Below are positions 36,838 through 53,808 of a stretch of DNA of 54,383 bases, one piece after another. The position numbers were made by a program, and so were the translations under genes. The notes under the pieces are model-generated. The model was not told the DNA's origin and ran no database searches. It was given only the letters and a program-made list of their open reading frames with translations. Source of the stretch: an uncultured Bacteroidales bacterium (GTDB taxonomy: Bacteria; Bacteroidota; Bacteroidia; Bacteroidales; JAUNSR01). Location: positions 1 through 54,383 of the forward strand of contig CAMTOJ010000017.1 of NCBI GenBank assembly GCA_947074145.1. Reading direction: 5' to 3'. The stretch's first letter is position 1, and each line of letters opens with the position of its first letter.

Positions 36838-37743
36838 ATGGATATATTAGACGAATCGATAAAATATTTTCTTTTGTTCCTTGTCGGGGCTTTCTCGGGA
36901 TTTATAAATGTAATAGCGGGTGGCGGATCAATGGTTACCTTGCCTTTGCTTATGGGATTCGGTATGCCTGCCCCCATTGCTAACGGGACTAATCGTATTT
37001 CCATATTATTTCAAGATATAGCCGGGATAATTAAATTCATTAAAGCCGGAAAACTACCTATTCGTATAGCTCTTATTCTTGGTATTCCAACTGTGATTGG
37101 ATCGGTTGTAGGTGCGATGTTCGCAAGTAGGCTAAATGAAATGCTCTTGAGTATAGTAATTTTTGTATTGCTTATTGCAATGTCAATTTATATTATAGTC
37201 AAACCTCCGGTTATTAAAAACAGATCAGACAATGAAGATGAAGAGGTTAAAAATGAAAAGAATATTGATAATAGCAATCTGATAAAGAAAAATGATGCAA
37301 CTCAAAAAAATATAGAGAATATAAATAACAGAGGTCGGGTCGATAAGATTCTTAATAAGAAAATTAAGGATAAGAAAATAGGAGTCTTCTCTTTTGTCCT
37401 TTTTCTGATTGTTGGTATTTATGCCGGTTTTATTCAGGTTGGGTCCACACTTATTTGGTATGCTATTCTTACATGGAAAATGAAATTCGGATTTATAAGT
37501 GCTAATGCAATAAAGTTATTTTTGAATTTTATTATGACACCAATTGCTCTCTTTGTTTTTATTCTTCATCATCAGGTAGCATTTGTTGAGGGTATAATAA
37601 TTGGTGTTGGGAGTTTTATCGGAGCATGGATTAGTGCAAAAATAGCTATGAAACTTAGTGCTAAAGTGGTAAAGATTATGATGTTGATAATCTTTACAGT
37701 TGCCGCCTCTTATGTTCTTTTATTCAAAATTATAGGAATCTAA
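36838..37743 (+). CDS. TauE/SafE (TSUP) family sulfite/sulfonate-type permease
   Basis: 301 residues with about eight TM segments in two homologous halves: FLVGAFSGFINVIAGGGSMVTLPLLMGFGMPAPIANGTNR opens the first and FLIVGIYAGFIQVGSTLIWYAILT the second. The INVIAGGGSMVTLPLL segment is a TSUP signature. An unusually polar loop of about 60 residues, rich in Asn/Lys (about 123-183), separates the halves. The family exports sulfite, sulfoacetate or related anions; the substrate is not predictable here. Monocistronic. Confidence 0.9.
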   Translation: MDILDESIKYFLLFLVGAFSGFINVIAGGGSMVTLPLLMGFGMPAPIANGTNRISILFQDIAGIIKFIKAGKLPIRIALILGIPTVIGSVVGAMFASRLNEMLLSIVIFVLLIAMSIYIIVKPPVIKNRSDNEDEEVKNEKNIDNSNLIKKNDATQKNIENINNRGRVDKILNKKIKDKKIGVFSFVLFLIVGIYAGFIQVGSTLIWYAILTWKMKFGFISANAIKLFLNFIMTPIALFVFILHHQVAFVEGIIIGVGSFIGAWISAKIAMKLSAKVVKIMMLIIFTVAASYVLLFKIIGI

Positions 37744-38573: not shown

Positions 38574-38972
38574 TTATTCACATTTGGTATCGGAAGAGCA
38601 GCTTTCACAATCTTCCCCACATATCTTGCCATTTTCCAAGGCCTGCTCGGTTGAATATTTTCCAAGTTGTCCCTTTCTTAAAAGATTAAGATTGGAGAAT
38701 AAGTCATCACCTTCGCTTTTATATACATCAATACCATTGTCTCTGAAAAGATTCAGAGCTAAAAGTTGCATTTGTGATGTTAATACAGCATGGATATTCT
38801 CTTGTTTTAAACGAAGAGTGATCTTTGTTCCCGGAGGTATTATCTCTTTCCAGTTCTTAAATTCCGAGCCTTCTGATATATTTTTTTCAAGATCGTAAAC
38901 ACATACTTCCGGTGTTGAATTGAAACCGGTGGCTATCTTTTTTTTATCTTTTACTGGTACTATTACTTTCAT
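38574..38972 (-). CDS. NifX/NafY-like dinitrogenase cofactor-domain protein with Cys-rich tail
   Basis: 132 residues. The first ~110 match the NifX/NifB-C cofactor-binding domain: MKVIVPVKDKKKIATGFNSTPEVCVYDLE, HAVLTSQMQLLALNLFRDNGIDVYK, and LNLLRKGQLGKY. The tail adds four cysteines in 12 residues (CGEDCESCSSDTKC), which could hold a metal or Fe-S cluster. The ATG at 38972 lies 5 bp after the modC stop, so it is the third gene of modB-modC-orf. NifX-type proteins carry FeMo-co precursors. Its place in a molybdate transport operon suggests it receives or buffers Mo, or carries cofactor; that is inference. Confidence 0.8.
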   Translation of the reverse strand: MKVIVPVKDKKKIATGFNSTPEVCVYDLEKNISEGSEFKNWKEIIPPGTKITLRLKQENIHAVLTSQMQLLALNLFRDNGIDVYKSEGDDLFSNLNLLRKGQLGKYSTEQALENGKICGEDCESCSSDTKCE

Positions 38973-38977
38973 ATTTA

Positions 38978-39604
38978 TCAAAGTGTTATAATTCTGTCTC
39001 CCATCTTATTGGCTTCCTGTTGATCATGAGTAACCATAATACTTATTCCGCCAAGATATTTATGAGCTTTAATAATTTCATCCTGAAGAGCAGGGCGCAT
39101 ATGCCAATCGATGGCAGACAAAGGTTCGTCAAGCAATAATATAGAGGGGCGTGAAGCAAGTGCTCTTGCGAGAGCTACTCTTTGCTTTTGTCCGCCCGAT
39201 AGTTTTGTAGGTCTTACTTTTTCAAGATTGTTTAATCCGAAAATATTGATAAGTTCCTTTATCATTTCTTTATCAACTTTTGTTTGAGCAAACATTATAT
39301 TCTGCTCAACGGTCATATTAGGAAAAAGAGCAAAATCCTGAAACATATATGCGATATGGCGCTTCTGAGGTTCAATGTTTTTACCTGATTGTTTATCATA
39401 CCAAACCTCATCGCCATAACTTATTTTTCCCTCATCAGGATTGGTAAGTCCGGCGAGCATACGAAGCAATGTACTTTTTCCACAACCTGAATGACCAACA
39501 AGACATATAAAATCTCCCTGATCAATTTTGTCGGTAAACTCTAAATATCGTTCACCTTCAGTGGTATGCATCTTCTTTTTTACTTTCAATTCCAGACTCT
39601 TCAT
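38978..39604 (-). CDS. modC: Molybdate ABC transporter ATP-binding protein, short form
   Basis: 208 residues. Walker A GHSGCGKST (about 37-45), Q-loop YMFQDFALFPNMTVEQN, signature LSGGQKQR, Walker B ILLLDEPLSAIDW, switch THDQQE. It ends right after the ATPase core (GDRIITL), whereas typical ModC proteins are about 350 residues with a C-terminal Mop/TOBE molybdate-binding domain, which is missing. It drives molybdate import with ModB, encoded 78 bp upstream, and ModA, encoded 12 kb away on the other side of the nif genes. Confidence 0.88.
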   Translation of the reverse strand: MKSLELKVKKKMHTTEGERYLEFTDKIDQGDFICLVGHSGCGKSTLLRMLAGLTNPDEGKISYGDEVWYDKQSGKNIEPQKRHIAYMFQDFALFPNMTVEQNIMFAQTKVDKEMIKELINIFGLNNLEKVRPTKLSGGQKQRVALARALASRPSILLLDEPLSAIDWHMRPALQDEIIKAHKYLGGISIMVTHDQQEANKMGDRIITL

Positions 39605-39682: not shown

Positions 39683-40357
39683 TTAAATCCTTCTTGATTT
39701 ATTGATGCTATAAATTATAGTAAGTGCAATAAATGAAACAACAAACATCAATAACGCATATTGATTGGCGGCTTCATAGTTTAGAGATTGTACTTCATCG
39801 TAAAGGGCAATAGATGCAACTCGTGTATTACCGGGCATATTACCTCCTACCATCAATACAATACCGAATTCACCCATACAATGAGCAAAGGTCATAGCAA
39901 TAGCTGTAATTATACTACCTTTTATGTTAGGAAGAAGAACTTTGAAAAAAGTAATTGTTTTACTCTTACCCATAGTGTAGGATGCCTCTCTATAACTTGA
40001 AGGCAATAGAGCCAATCCGTTTTGTAAAGGTTGAATCATAAAAGGCATAGAGCAGATTACACTGGCAATCAGTACGCCTGTGAAAGAAAAGGCTAGACGG
40101 ATATCGAAATATTGTTCCAACATTGCTCCGAAGCTGTTTTGCGGACTATAAGCAAGCAAAATATAAAATCCTAAAACTGTTGGTGGTAAAACCATAGGCA
40201 TACAAATCAGTGCTTCAACAGCACTTTTTCCTTTGAAGTCTCCATAAGCAAGGAAATAAGCTATCGGCAACCCTATAATCAATAATATTATCGTGGTCCA
40301 AAGCGCCAGATTGCCCGTCGTTGCCATGGTCTGTATAAAATCGGCGTTTGCAATCAT
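39683..40357 (-). CDS. modB: Molybdate ABC transporter permease
   Basis: 224 residues with five to six TM segments and the binding-protein-dependent permease loop EASYTMGKSKTITFFKVLLPNIKGSIITA, which contacts ModC. PMVLPPTVLGFYILL and HCMGEFGIVLMVGGNMPGNT are ModB hallmarks. It is preceded by an 81-bp gap after nifV that contains a ModE-like box, so it may have its own molybdenum-controlled promoter besides read-through from nif transcription. Confidence 0.94.
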   Translation of the reverse strand: MIANADFIQTMATTGNLALWTTIILLIIGLPIAYFLAYGDFKGKSAVEALICMPMVLPPTVLGFYILLAYSPQNSFGAMLEQYFDIRLAFSFTGVLIASVICSMPFMIQPLQNGLALLPSSYREASYTMGKSKTITFFKVLLPNIKGSIITAIAMTFAHCMGEFGIVLMVGGNMPGNTRVASIALYDEVQSLNYEAANQYALLMFVVSFIALTIIYSINKSRRI

Positions 40358-40403: not shown

Positions 40404-40426
40404 CGTTATTTACAGTCAGGATATCG
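40404..40426. promoter_or_regulatory. ModE-like box upstream of modB
   Basis: A 23-bp element with one half-site CGTTAT (40404-40409) and the other ATATCG (40421-40426), the same length as the four boxes near the porin. On the modB strand it reads CGATAT-N11-ATAACG, so 11 of 12 half-site bases match. It lies 47 bp upstream of the modB ATG, a suitable place for a repressor site. Confidence 0.6.
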
Positions 40427-50001: not shown

Positions 50002-50847
<846 letters not shown>

Positions 50848-51114: not shown

Positions 51115-51864
51115 TCACATCGCCGGAGATGAATATCCATATTTTTCCCAAATAGCTTTTGTTTCCCCAGAAAGTACATAGCTCATAAACTTCTTCGCTT
51201 CCGGACAAGAAACCGGACGTTTAATTAAAATGCACGCCTGTTCCACCGGTTTATAAAGTTTTTGATCCACAATATGGCAATAACCTTTATCTTTCATATC
51301 AGGAGCCAATGCAAGAGATAAAGCAACAAATCCAATCTCTACATTTCCCGTAAAAGCATATTGTGCTGCCTGAGATATATTGTCACCATAAACAATCTTT
51401 GATTTTAGATTCTCAAACTTACCTGTTGACTTTAGTAACTCCACTGCTCTGTCGCCATAAGGCGCTGTTTCAGGTTTAGCTATTGCGATCTTTTTCACGC
51501 TCTGTTCATCCAATAAATCTATCCCTTTACTAACATCAAGTGTGGTGCTATACATTGCAAGTTTACCGAAAGCATAAGTTTTCATCTCTCCATAAGTAGC
51601 ACCCTTCTCTTTTAATTTTAAAGGAAAAACATTATCGGCAGCCATAAAGAAATCAAACGAAGCTCCATTAAGAATTTGCTGTACAAGATTGCCCGAACTT
51701 CCGAACGTAATATTTACTTTACTTGAGGGATGCGATTTTATATATTCTGTTTTGATCTCTTCAAGAACAAAGCGAAGGTTAGCTGCCGCAGCTACATTTA
51801 CTTGTTGTGCATTAATTTGTAATGCTAACAAAAACGTGAATAAAAAAAGAATTGATTTTTTCAT
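51115..51864 (-). CDS. modA: Molybdate-binding periplasmic protein
   Basis: 249 residues with a signal peptide (LALQINAQ), no lipobox. ModA motifs: VNVAAAANLRFVLEEI, VNITFGSSGNLVQQI, FDFFMAADN, AIAKPETAPYGDRAVELL and GNVEIGFVALSLA, which form the oxyanion pocket. It captures molybdate (or tungstate) for ModBC. It lies 25 bp downstream of the outer-membrane porin in one operon behind four ModE boxes, separated from modBC by the nif genes. Confidence 0.95.
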   Translation of the reverse strand: MKKSILFLFTFLLALQINAQQVNVAAAANLRFVLEEIKTEYIKSHPSSKVNITFGSSGNLVQQILNGASFDFFMAADNVFPLKLKEKGATYGEMKTYAFGKLAMYSTTLDVSKGIDLLDEQSVKKIAIAKPETAPYGDRAVELLKSTGKFENLKSKIVYGDNISQAAQYAFTGNVEIGFVALSLALAPDMKDKGYCHIVDQKLYKPVEQACILIKRPVSCPEAKKFMSYVLSGETKAIWEKYGYSSPAM

Positions 51865-51889
51865 ATTTGTATATTTTTGATTGTTAATA

Positions 51890-53185
51890 TTATTTTACTA
51901 AAGCTACCATTACAGAAGGCTTGATTGAAAAACTTACATAAGCCCAGTTAGCATCTTTGGTTGACTTATCACCAAGACTTTTAGCGATTCTAACATTTTC
52001 ATTTACGAAATAGCGACTATATCCCCCTTCCAGTGAAAACCATGGATTTACCTTATGTTTTAATGTAGCATCTATTTCGCCACCTAATCCTTTACCAGAC
52101 ATCTTAGAGTTGTCAATAGCTGTTTTAAATGAATGATAACTTAAATCAAGCGATGTTTTCTTTTTATTGAATTTAAATGTCACACCTCCAAAAATATCTT
52201 CAAGACCGTTTTTGCCGGCTGAATTCCAATAATCCATTGATCCGTTAAAGGCATGATTCCCTCTAAATAATTGTTTAAAGTCACACTGTTTGTCATCTGT
52301 AGCATCATCGTCACCCGAGATATGCTCATATCCTAAATTAACAGATAAGGAAGAGATTAATGAATATGAAGCATTTGCTGCATAATATTGGCCGCCAAGT
52401 TTATCAAATTTTGTTCCTGATGGAGTATCTCCGCTTTGGAAATAAGCTTCTGCGGATGCTTTAAGAGGAATGCTCTTTGGAGCATAAGTCAATGTAAACC
52501 CATAAGTTACATTATTGTATAATTTGGTGCTCTTATAGTTTGATTTGCCTCCACAAGAGATTGTATCCTGATTCGAGATTAAAGTTCCTATACCTGTAAG
52601 TTTTAAACTTGGAGCAAGTTGTTTGGAAACCCACAATATACCCATGCATCGATATTTCATTCCCGGAGTATAATAAGCCTCATTTGATATGCCGCTGTTA
52701 TTGCCATAAGCAAAACTCAAATCAGCCATAAAGTCATTTGCATAATTATACTTAAAAGTCAAGATATCGTGAGTATTTCCCGTATTACTCCAGTTGGCTG
52801 CACTGAATATTCTTTTACTGTCATACTCAACCATCTGCCTACCTGCCTTAACTGTAAGTCCCGGGTATAACAACACTGAAGCCCACGCTTCAAAAATAGA
52901 AACAGAAGCTACATCTGCATTATGTGCTGCCTCACCCCATGTCCTTGAATCCTGCATTGTAACTTGCATGGCTACAACATTGTTGGAAAAAGCAACACCT
53001 AATCGTGATCGTTGTTGAACGAAAAAGGCTGCTGTCTGTGTTTCTGATAATGGTTTACTGTACCCCTCGCGAAGTTCTGCTCTTGGTCTGATCTCTCCGT
53101 AAACCGATAATTTTTGAGCATTCACAATATATGTACTGCTCCCTAATGCTAATAAAATAGCGAAAATGTTTCTTGTAATCCTCAT
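51890..53185 (-). CDS. Alginate-export-like outer-membrane porin, candidate molybdate channel
   Basis: 431 residues with a signal peptide (IVNAQ). The body is an amphipathic beta-barrel of the alginate-export (Alginate_exp) type: KLSVYGEIRPRAELREGYS, VQQRSRLGVAFSNN, VQVTMQDSRTWGEAA-like strands, LYPGLTVKAGRQMVEYDSKRIF, and C-terminal strand YVSFSIKPSVMV. Proteins with this barrel serve as porins for various anions. Because it is the first gene of an operon with modA and lies behind four ModE-like boxes, I infer that it lets molybdate through the outer membrane. The substrate is not shown by sequence. Confidence 0.8.
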   Translation of the reverse strand: MRITRNIFAILLALGSSTYIVNAQKLSVYGEIRPRAELREGYSKPLSETQTAAFFVQQRSRLGVAFSNNVVAMQVTMQDSRTWGEAAHNADVASVSIFEAWASVLLYPGLTVKAGRQMVEYDSKRIFSAANWSNTGNTHDILTFKYNYANDFMADLSFAYGNNSGISNEAYYTPGMKYRCMGILWVSKQLAPSLKLTGIGTLISNQDTISCGGKSNYKSTKLYNNVTYGFTLTYAPKSIPLKASAEAYFQSGDTPSGTKFDKLGGQYYAANASYSLISSLSVNLGYEHISGDDDATDDKQCDFKQLFRGNHAFNGSMDYWNSAGKNGLEDIFGGVTFKFNKKKTSLDLSYHSFKTAIDNSKMSGKGLGGEIDATLKHKVNPWFSLEGGYSRYFVNENVRIAKSLGDKSTKDANWAYVSFSIKPSVMVALVK

Positions 53186-53223
53186 AACACTTCATTTTAA
53201 ATAACTTATAATAATTTCTAACA

Positions 53224-53246
53224 CGTTATATGATTCCGAGATAATG
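53224..53246. promoter_or_regulatory. ModE-like box 1
   Basis: 23-bp element: CGTTAT (53224-53229), 11-bp centre, ATAATG (53241-53246). One mismatch from the symmetric CGTTAT-N11-ATAACG. Nearest of four boxes to the porin ATG (39 bp upstream). Confidence 0.65.
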
Positions 53247-53289
53247 CAATGCATTTTACGGCTCTATATTTTTTTAGTTTCAAGAAATG

Positions 53290-53312
53290 CGTTATCTGAA
53301 GTCGGGATAATG
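53290..53312. promoter_or_regulatory. ModE-like box 2
   Basis: CGTTAT (53290-53295) and ATAATG (53307-53312), same spacing as box 1. Box and about 40 bp of downstream flank (GGCTCTATATT) repeat those of box 1 with a 66-bp period, showing a local duplication. Confidence 0.65.
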
Positions 53313-53354
53313 CTACACATTTACCGGCTCTATATTATTAGATTTTAAGGTTTT

Positions 53355-53377
53355 CGTTATTGAAATTCTCAATAACG
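53355..53377. promoter_or_regulatory. ModE-like box 3
   Basis: CGTTATTGA (53355-53363) and TCAATAACG (53369-53377) are perfect inverted arms around AATTC, the longest symmetric box of the set. Confidence 0.75.
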
Positions 53378-53423
53378 TGTGTCAAAAAAAACTTTATAAA
53401 AAAGACATACTGATTGATTGTCA

Positions 53424-53446
53424 CGTTATATAAATAACATATAACG
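53424..53446. promoter_or_regulatory. ModE-like box 4
   Basis: CGTTATAT (53424-53431) and ATATAACG (53439-53446) are perfect 8-bp inverted arms around 7 bp, very close to the known E. coli ModE operator form. It starts 12 bp after the stop of the ModE-like gene. Confidence 0.78.
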
Positions 53447-53457
53447 CCTTAGAAAAA

Positions 53458-53808
53458 CTAAATAAGACACTTTTCCATATCTACATTTAGCTCCTTTAAG
53501 TTGTGATTGAAAAGTTCCATCTTTTTCTCAAAAAGTTTGATAAGAGCTTTCCCATATTCACTCACAATGCAGCCACCACCGCTTACACCACCTTTTTGTC
53601 TAATAACCACAGGAACGGGTGACATTCTATTGAGTTTATCGACTATAGTCCAAGCTTGCTGGTATGGCATTCCCTTTCTTTTTGCTGCAGAGTTTATAGA
53701 TCCTTCTTCTAAAATATAAACCAGCATACAATACTGAATGGAACCAAAAAAGAGTTCATCCTTACGATAGATCGCTATCGCTCCTTCTATTGTGAAATTC
53801 TTTATCAT
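53458..53808 (-). CDS. modE: ModE-type transcriptional regulator, DNA-binding domain only
   Basis: 116 residues matching the N-terminal winged HTH of ModE: LEEGSINSAAKRKGMPYQQAWTIVDKLNR (recognition helix), then VVIRQKGGVSGGGCIVSEYGKALIKLFE (wing and dimer helix). E. coli ModE is about 260 residues with two Mop molybdate-binding domains after this; here they are absent. It probably represses the adjacent porin-modA operon and modBC through the CGTTAT-N11-ATAACG boxes. It is divergent from the nifA-like gene. Confidence 0.88.
   Translation of the reverse strand: MIKNFTIEGAIAIYRKDELFFGSIQYCMLVYILEEGSINSAAKRKGMPYQQAWTIVDKLNRMSPVPVVIRQKGGVSGGGCIVSEYGKALIKLFEKKMELFNHNLKELNVDMEKCLI

Follow-up and report, generated by a model that had tools for sequence, protein, structure and literature searches.

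A predicted outer-membrane β-barrel gene of an uncultured Bacteroidales bacterium very probably belongs to a molybdenum (Mo) uptake operon under ModE-type control, and its product is probably a channel by which molybdate enters the periplasm. The gene lies in a stretch of 54,383 nucleotides (assembly GCA_947074145.1, contig CAMTOJ010000017.1), the whole of which is called the window here. It stands between a modE-type gene and modA and is preceded by ModE-like boxes; the linkage to modA recurs in relatives and is restricted to one branch of the barrel family and, in our survey, to nif-positive genomes. The supply of Mo can limit nitrogen fixation and, to our knowledge, the passage of molybdate across the outer membrane has been little studied; this step becomes testable with a branch of barrels linked to ModA and ModE-type boxes.

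On the minus strand the order is modE-type gene, a 272-bp gap, barrel, 25 bp, modA, nifH and further nif genes; the nif cluster has modB and a modC-type gene at its other end. The features concerned are the following.

53458..53808, minus strand: modE-type regulator, helix-turn-helix (HTH) only, 116 aa (TIGR00637, E 2.7e-19)
53424..53446, no strand assigned: ModE-like box 1, exact CGTTAT-N11-ATAACG (pattern scan)
53355..53377, no strand assigned: ModE-like box 2, exact (pattern scan)
53290..53312, no strand assigned: ModE-like box 3, 1 mismatch (pattern scan)
53224..53246, no strand assigned: ModE-like box 4, 1 mismatch (pattern scan)
51890..53185, minus strand: predicted outer-membrane barrel of AlgE-like fold, candidate molybdate channel, 431 aa (PF13372, AlphaFold2 (AF2) model, tree)
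51115..51864, minus strand: modA, periplasmic molybdate-binding protein (TIGR01256 above cut-off; solved ModA relatives)
50002..50826, minus strand: nifH, first gene of the nif cluster after modA (TIGR01287 above cut-off)
40404..40426, no strand assigned: ModE-like box just upstream of modB, 1 mismatch (pattern scan)
39683..40357, minus strand: modB, molybdate ATP-binding cassette (ABC) permease (TIGR02141, 211.5 bits, cut-off 182.6)
38978..39604, minus strand: modC-type ATPase of 208 aa without a TOBE domain (PF00005; TIGR02142 below cut-off)

A sequence-only reading of this DNA had described a signal-bearing barrel 25 bp upstream of modA, four ModE-like boxes directly before it and a ModE-type gene next to it, and each of these was confirmed: the first by the open reading frames (ORFs), the PF13372 match and a signal-like N-terminal stretch ending in ...VNAQ (assessed by eye), the second as two exact boxes and two with one mismatch, and the third by a TIGR00637 match of 69.1 bits, which is under the cut-off. 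The barrel matches PF13372 (Alginate_exp; E 3.3e-12, 46.3 bits against a cut-off of 25.2) and had no match in the NCBIfam scan. ModA scores 184.6 bits against the TIGR01256 cut-off of 62.5, and solved structures related to it carry the name molybdate-binding protein. Both barrel and modA have a single match each across the window's genome. Within the nif cluster nifB is above and a nifV-type gene under its cut-off; other members are presumably nifD, K, E and N. The neighbours of the barrel are the modE-type gene, modA and nifH rather than an alginate biosynthesis cluster.

The boxes are palindromes of the form CGTTAT-N11-ATAACG, which we take to be like ModE sites. The four in the gap between modE and the barrel are spaced 65–69 bp apart; over the same 272 bp, 5000 Markov resamples averaged 0.0022 sites with at most one mismatch and never held more than 1. 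Across the whole window the count at up to three mismatches exceeds shuffles only modestly (41 sites, shuffle mean 29.3), and the analysis was therefore restricted to sites with 0 or 1 mismatch. A box (within 700 bp upstream, N11 or N12, at most one mismatch) precedes 17 of the 20 linked barrels scanned, L162 being counted apart owing to its 2 bp of upstream sequence, and a further barrel copy (L009b) being left out; loci are cited here by survey number (L), genomes likewise (G). No box was found upstream of any of 94 unlinked loci (64 kb scanned, spacers of 10–13 tried), and 1.24 Mb of other loci held 6. Where modE and boxes were both mapped, the boxes lie mostly directly behind modE; in L166 two exact boxes are found farther upstream.

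Recurrence of the barrel–modA linkage in relatives was found at 21 loci, those of the order survey being nif-positive. In a scan of named genomes, in which the best 80 of 563 confirmed stretches were kept as loci, 10 carry modE-type gene, barrel and modA in the same order (tblastn with the window proteins; L004, L005 and L009–L016, from uncultured Bacteroides, Paludibacter, Bacteroides graminisolvens DSM 19988 and a Bacteroidetes metagenome-assembled genome); the other 70 had no modA match in the available flanking DNA, which is short for some. B. graminisolvens DSM 19988 (L015), an isolate with a strain name, has such a barrel, with a box, modA and nifH beside it. Among 393 genomes of the window's order, the barrel family occurs in 171 (E up to 1e-10), modA in 49 (55 places) and nifH in 30 (29 above cut-off). 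Linkage was judged from the modA places and not from those of the barrel: all 55, the window included, were inspected over about 7 kb per side where the contig allowed, and 11 have a barrel upstream on the same strand, with a TauE-type gene in between in L150. All 11 linked genomes are nif-positive: of the 49 genomes with modA, the barrel is linked in 11 of 25 nif-positive and in 0 of 24 nif-negative ones (Fisher p 2.4e-4, kinship making the genomes non-independent). Of the 21 linked loci, 20 have a modE-type gene before the barrel, and L162 ends short of that position. The operon of some relatives reads TOBE-modE-trmO-barrel-(TauE)-modA-TOBE-modB-modC (L150 by Pfam, others by resemblance), and modE–modA operons without a barrel also exist (e.g., L142, L149, L154, L160, L168).

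Two trees were built, a larger one of 116 barrels and a careful one of 60 of these (all 28 rows of the Mo side and 32 drawn at random within labels); the barrel in two ORFs (L033) and the copies of the window (L001, L002, L084) were omitted, and 45 of 51 barrel homologues were aligned together with the window barrel. Because modA adjacency defines the mod label, what counts as a result is where the labelled rows cluster on the tree and not that they exist. All 21 linked rows fall, with L017 and five duplicates, in a single branch of the careful tree (support 100/98). Three changes account for the label there, such as a single gain with two losses; L110 shifts to the other side in this tree. 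The other side of the larger tree has 88 rows, none of them linked. Linked barrels span 32–81% identity to the window barrel, so identity alone does not mark this Mo branch.

The genes near the remaining barrels give the large family named "alginate export" a likely client class. Nitrogen-oxide (N-oxide) genes flank 66 of the 88 other-side rows (28 labelled denit, 24 nrf, 10 hcp and 4 nas; 22 are without them), where most barrel loci from the order search have flanks of about 1.5 kb and the label "other" includes unseen contexts. BLAST clustering of the ORFs up to 6 kb away, with a scan of one representative per main cluster, yielded clusters of NrfH, NrfA, copper nitrite reductase, hydroxylamine reductase, RIC, Rrf2 and a cytochrome d1 protein, along with a fusion resembling NasC and NirB that falls under both cut-offs. 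A nirK or nirS cluster, each confirmed on one representative, is carried by 26 of the 28 denit rows; further neighbours are presumably norB, norC, norQ and norD, and the norB-like representative had no NCBIfam match. BT1414 of Bacteroides thetaiotaomicron, an alginate export family protein, is reported to lie inside the nrfAH operon and to be 30- to 36-fold down under low iron (PMC10434189). The N-oxide enzymes beside the family and the position of BT1414 together point to small oxyanions as its likely clients. A broken relative of the barrel was also seen 11 bp after the pstB-type gene of a phosphate-type ABC cluster (L033:9229-11296), a single case, and the binding protein of that cluster matches PstS models below cut-off.

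The sequence-only reading had derived the barrel from an alginate-export type. Here "alginate-export" proves to be a family label alone, as relatives outside the Mo branch lie mostly near N-oxide reductases. Descent from an alginate exporter was rejected as the useful reading on this neighbour survey. Most other-side barrels have reductases of nitrite or other N-oxides as neighbours, which makes a switch of clients within a family of small-oxyanion channels the likely origin of the Mo branch, rather than a polysaccharide exporter.

The same neighbourhoods allow for a broad small-anion porin (nitrite, nitrate, sulfate, phosphate, molybdate) that is expressed with the Mo operon and is not specific for molybdate. 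Relatives near nrfHA, nirK, nirS, hcp and nasC-nirB-like genes would fit it, as would the broken copy behind pstB in L033 and conserved Arg positions common to both tree sides. This alternative is nevertheless rather unlikely, as the tree splits clearly by neighbourhood and box and residues differ between its two sides (e.g., positions 392, 416 and 347).

Barrel fold and outer-membrane location are predicted. The AF2 model (predicted local distance difference test score, pLDDT, 85.7) has 18 strands, as counted from DSSP of the model, and is AlgE-like: AlgE, the alginate export porin of Pseudomonas aeruginosa (PF13372), is its top structural match in both Foldseek and VIA-align. Searches of PDB sequences with the barrel and its profile gave no profile match at E up to 1. 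Window barrel and AlgE have family and predicted fold in common, whereas identity is 15% over the structural match and the neighbours of the window barrel are modE, modA and nif.

In the mechanism that we propose, the boxes would be bound by the ModE-type protein, which would act as a repressor under ample Mo; when Mo runs short, expression of the barrel, of modA and (by way of the box at 40404) of modBC would increase in concert. The barrel would then provide a diffusion route for a small oxyanion and ModA a high-affinity sink. The arrangement is like that of ModE–ModABC systems in its modA and modB, both above curated cut-offs, and in its palindromic boxes (a likeness that we presume), and unlike them in that the regulator is without a Mo-binding domain and the operon includes a gene for a predicted outer-membrane protein.

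Mo may have outer-membrane routes besides the barrel, because ModE-like boxes also precede TonB-dependent receptors. The exact N11 sites of the window's genome, five in all, are found in the modE–barrel operator (2) or before metal-uptake-type genes (3), the latter being a FISUMP and Peripla_BP_2 cluster, an operon of FecCD permease, ATPase, TP_methylase and TonB receptor in that order, and a cluster of SBP_bac_6 and Peripla_BP_2-like genes; the five of G078 are likewise placed, three in the operator and two at FISUMP loci. The TonB receptor has 20 homologues in the 393 genomes (E up to 1e-70), of which only 4 are in nif-positive genomes (G000, G078, G339, G165) and 16 in nif-negative ones, and it is therefore not tied to nitrogen fixation. 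A box is near 16 of the 20, within 200 bp for 13 and upstream of the operon for 3 (L226, L246, L247); a modE-type gene adjoins 8, with the order modE-box-receptor in 6 of these. Loci of this receptor family include L226 (G000:C60), L246, L247, L238, L248, L249 and L264–L275. At L265:3457-5974 modE, box and receptor are followed by a DUF364/DUF4213 "putative heavy-metal chelation" protein and an NTPase_1-domain protein, and at L227, L228, L229, L230, L236 and L237 FISUMP-domain proteins occur near boxes, beside Peripla_BP_2-type and lipoprotein-like proteins and TonB receptors (one FISUMP and one Peripla_BP_2 protein were scanned, the others assigned by BLAST likeness).

Such receptors, found in this genome alongside FecCD-type transporters and Peripla_BP_2 proteins in the manner of chelate uptake, and the AlgE-like fold, AlgE being an exporter, would also suit a barrel that imports or exports a small Mo-binding compound. 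This is quite improbable: inspection of the operons, where most ORFs were unscanned, revealed no gene recognisable as one for chelator biosynthesis, and the partner gene is modA, whose solved relatives are named molybdate-binding proteins. A wider picture, offered tentatively, is that diazotrophic Bacteroidales might control the outer-membrane Mo step through one ModE-type regulon comprising an AlgE-fold molybdate channel, drawn from a nitrogen-oxyanion channel family and welded to ModA, beside ModE-box TonB receptors with FecCD-type transporters.

Several observations weigh against a ModE-controlled molybdate channel. The ModE-box TonB receptor could itself be the main Mo route. The modE-type protein stays under the curated TIGR00637 cut-off of 98.5 bits, and no molybdate-binding (TOBE) domain was found in its 116 aa with Pfam or NCBIfam. 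Box counts are not above those of a reversed control pattern (19 against 45 in the window's genome at up to one mismatch; 19 against 25 for exact N11/N12 sites in the 11 linked genomes), so that a single site carries little weight by itself and the argument depends on where the boxes lie and on their conservation; the exact site is absent in 4 of the 11 (G339, G327, G037, G381) and in G064 one of three is in an unrelated place. Two linked barrels (L086, L167) are without a box. In the Mo branch, L017 has neither modA neighbour nor box, the five duplicates (L003, L006, L007, L008 and L009b, i.e., L009:5328-6629) have no modA neighbour, and the four of these that were scanned (L003, L006, L007, L008) have no box upstream. 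Of the 25 nif-positive genomes with modA, 14 lack a linked barrel. The inferred net charge of the lumen is not raised (mean +0.9 in the Mo branch, +3.4 in N-oxide rows; lumen-facing residues were deduced from hydrophobicity, not coordinates), and lumen charge was dropped as proof of a molybdate filter. That the barrel is a cell-envelope gene sharing the promoter by descent alone, as the duplicates without Mo genes alongside and the 14 unlinked genomes might suggest, is very unlikely given its linkage in 21 loci, with barrels down to 32% identity to the window's and boxes in most, and its retention in the operon although trmO and TauE genes were placed beside it.

The sequence-only reading also knew of no well-established outer-membrane molybdate porin. 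This stands in so far as no Alginate_exp barrel tied to molybdate was found in the open-licence text that was searchable, where papers containing both "alginate export" and "molybd" drew no link between them; ideas on an outer-membrane step had already been printed (PMC8602904; PMC4465626). The P. aeruginosa route combining the type VI secretion system (T6SS), ModA and IcmP is reported to give ModA an outer-membrane partner but works through secreted ModA and a metalloproteinase instead of a porin-like barrel (PMC8602904). An Azotobacter chroococcum receptor described as "potentially for molybdate" adjoins mod and nif genes, as the window barrel does, but is TonB-dependent and so comparable to the boxed TonB receptors reported here and not to the barrel (PMC4465626). 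BT1414 shares family label and phylum with the window barrel and is reportedly co-regulated with a small-oxyanion reductase; surveyed nrf-linked barrels are on the opposite side of the tree from the window barrel, BT1414 itself being outside it (PMC10434189).

Some smaller features of the locus and genome concern the regulator and the adjoining genes. The sole two TOBE matches of the genome are on contig C76, in a stand-alone two-TOBE protein (G000:C76:5474-5869; L213:5465-5881) whose contig has no box. Because of this separate protein, and since a TOBE gene abuts modE in some relatives, Mo sensing may be split between an HTH-only regulator and a separate TOBE protein, and the protein on C76 might serve the HTH-only ModE-type protein as a sensor or store of Mo. 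A ModE-like protein of Campylobacter is likewise not known to have a molybdate-binding domain. Directly after the modC-type gene the window encodes a Nitro_FeMo-Co domain protein (38574-38981, just above cut-off), and TauE/SafE-type permease genes occur in or near mod operons (window 36838-37743 and L150:6021-6818 by Pfam; L160:6097-6924 by resemblance).
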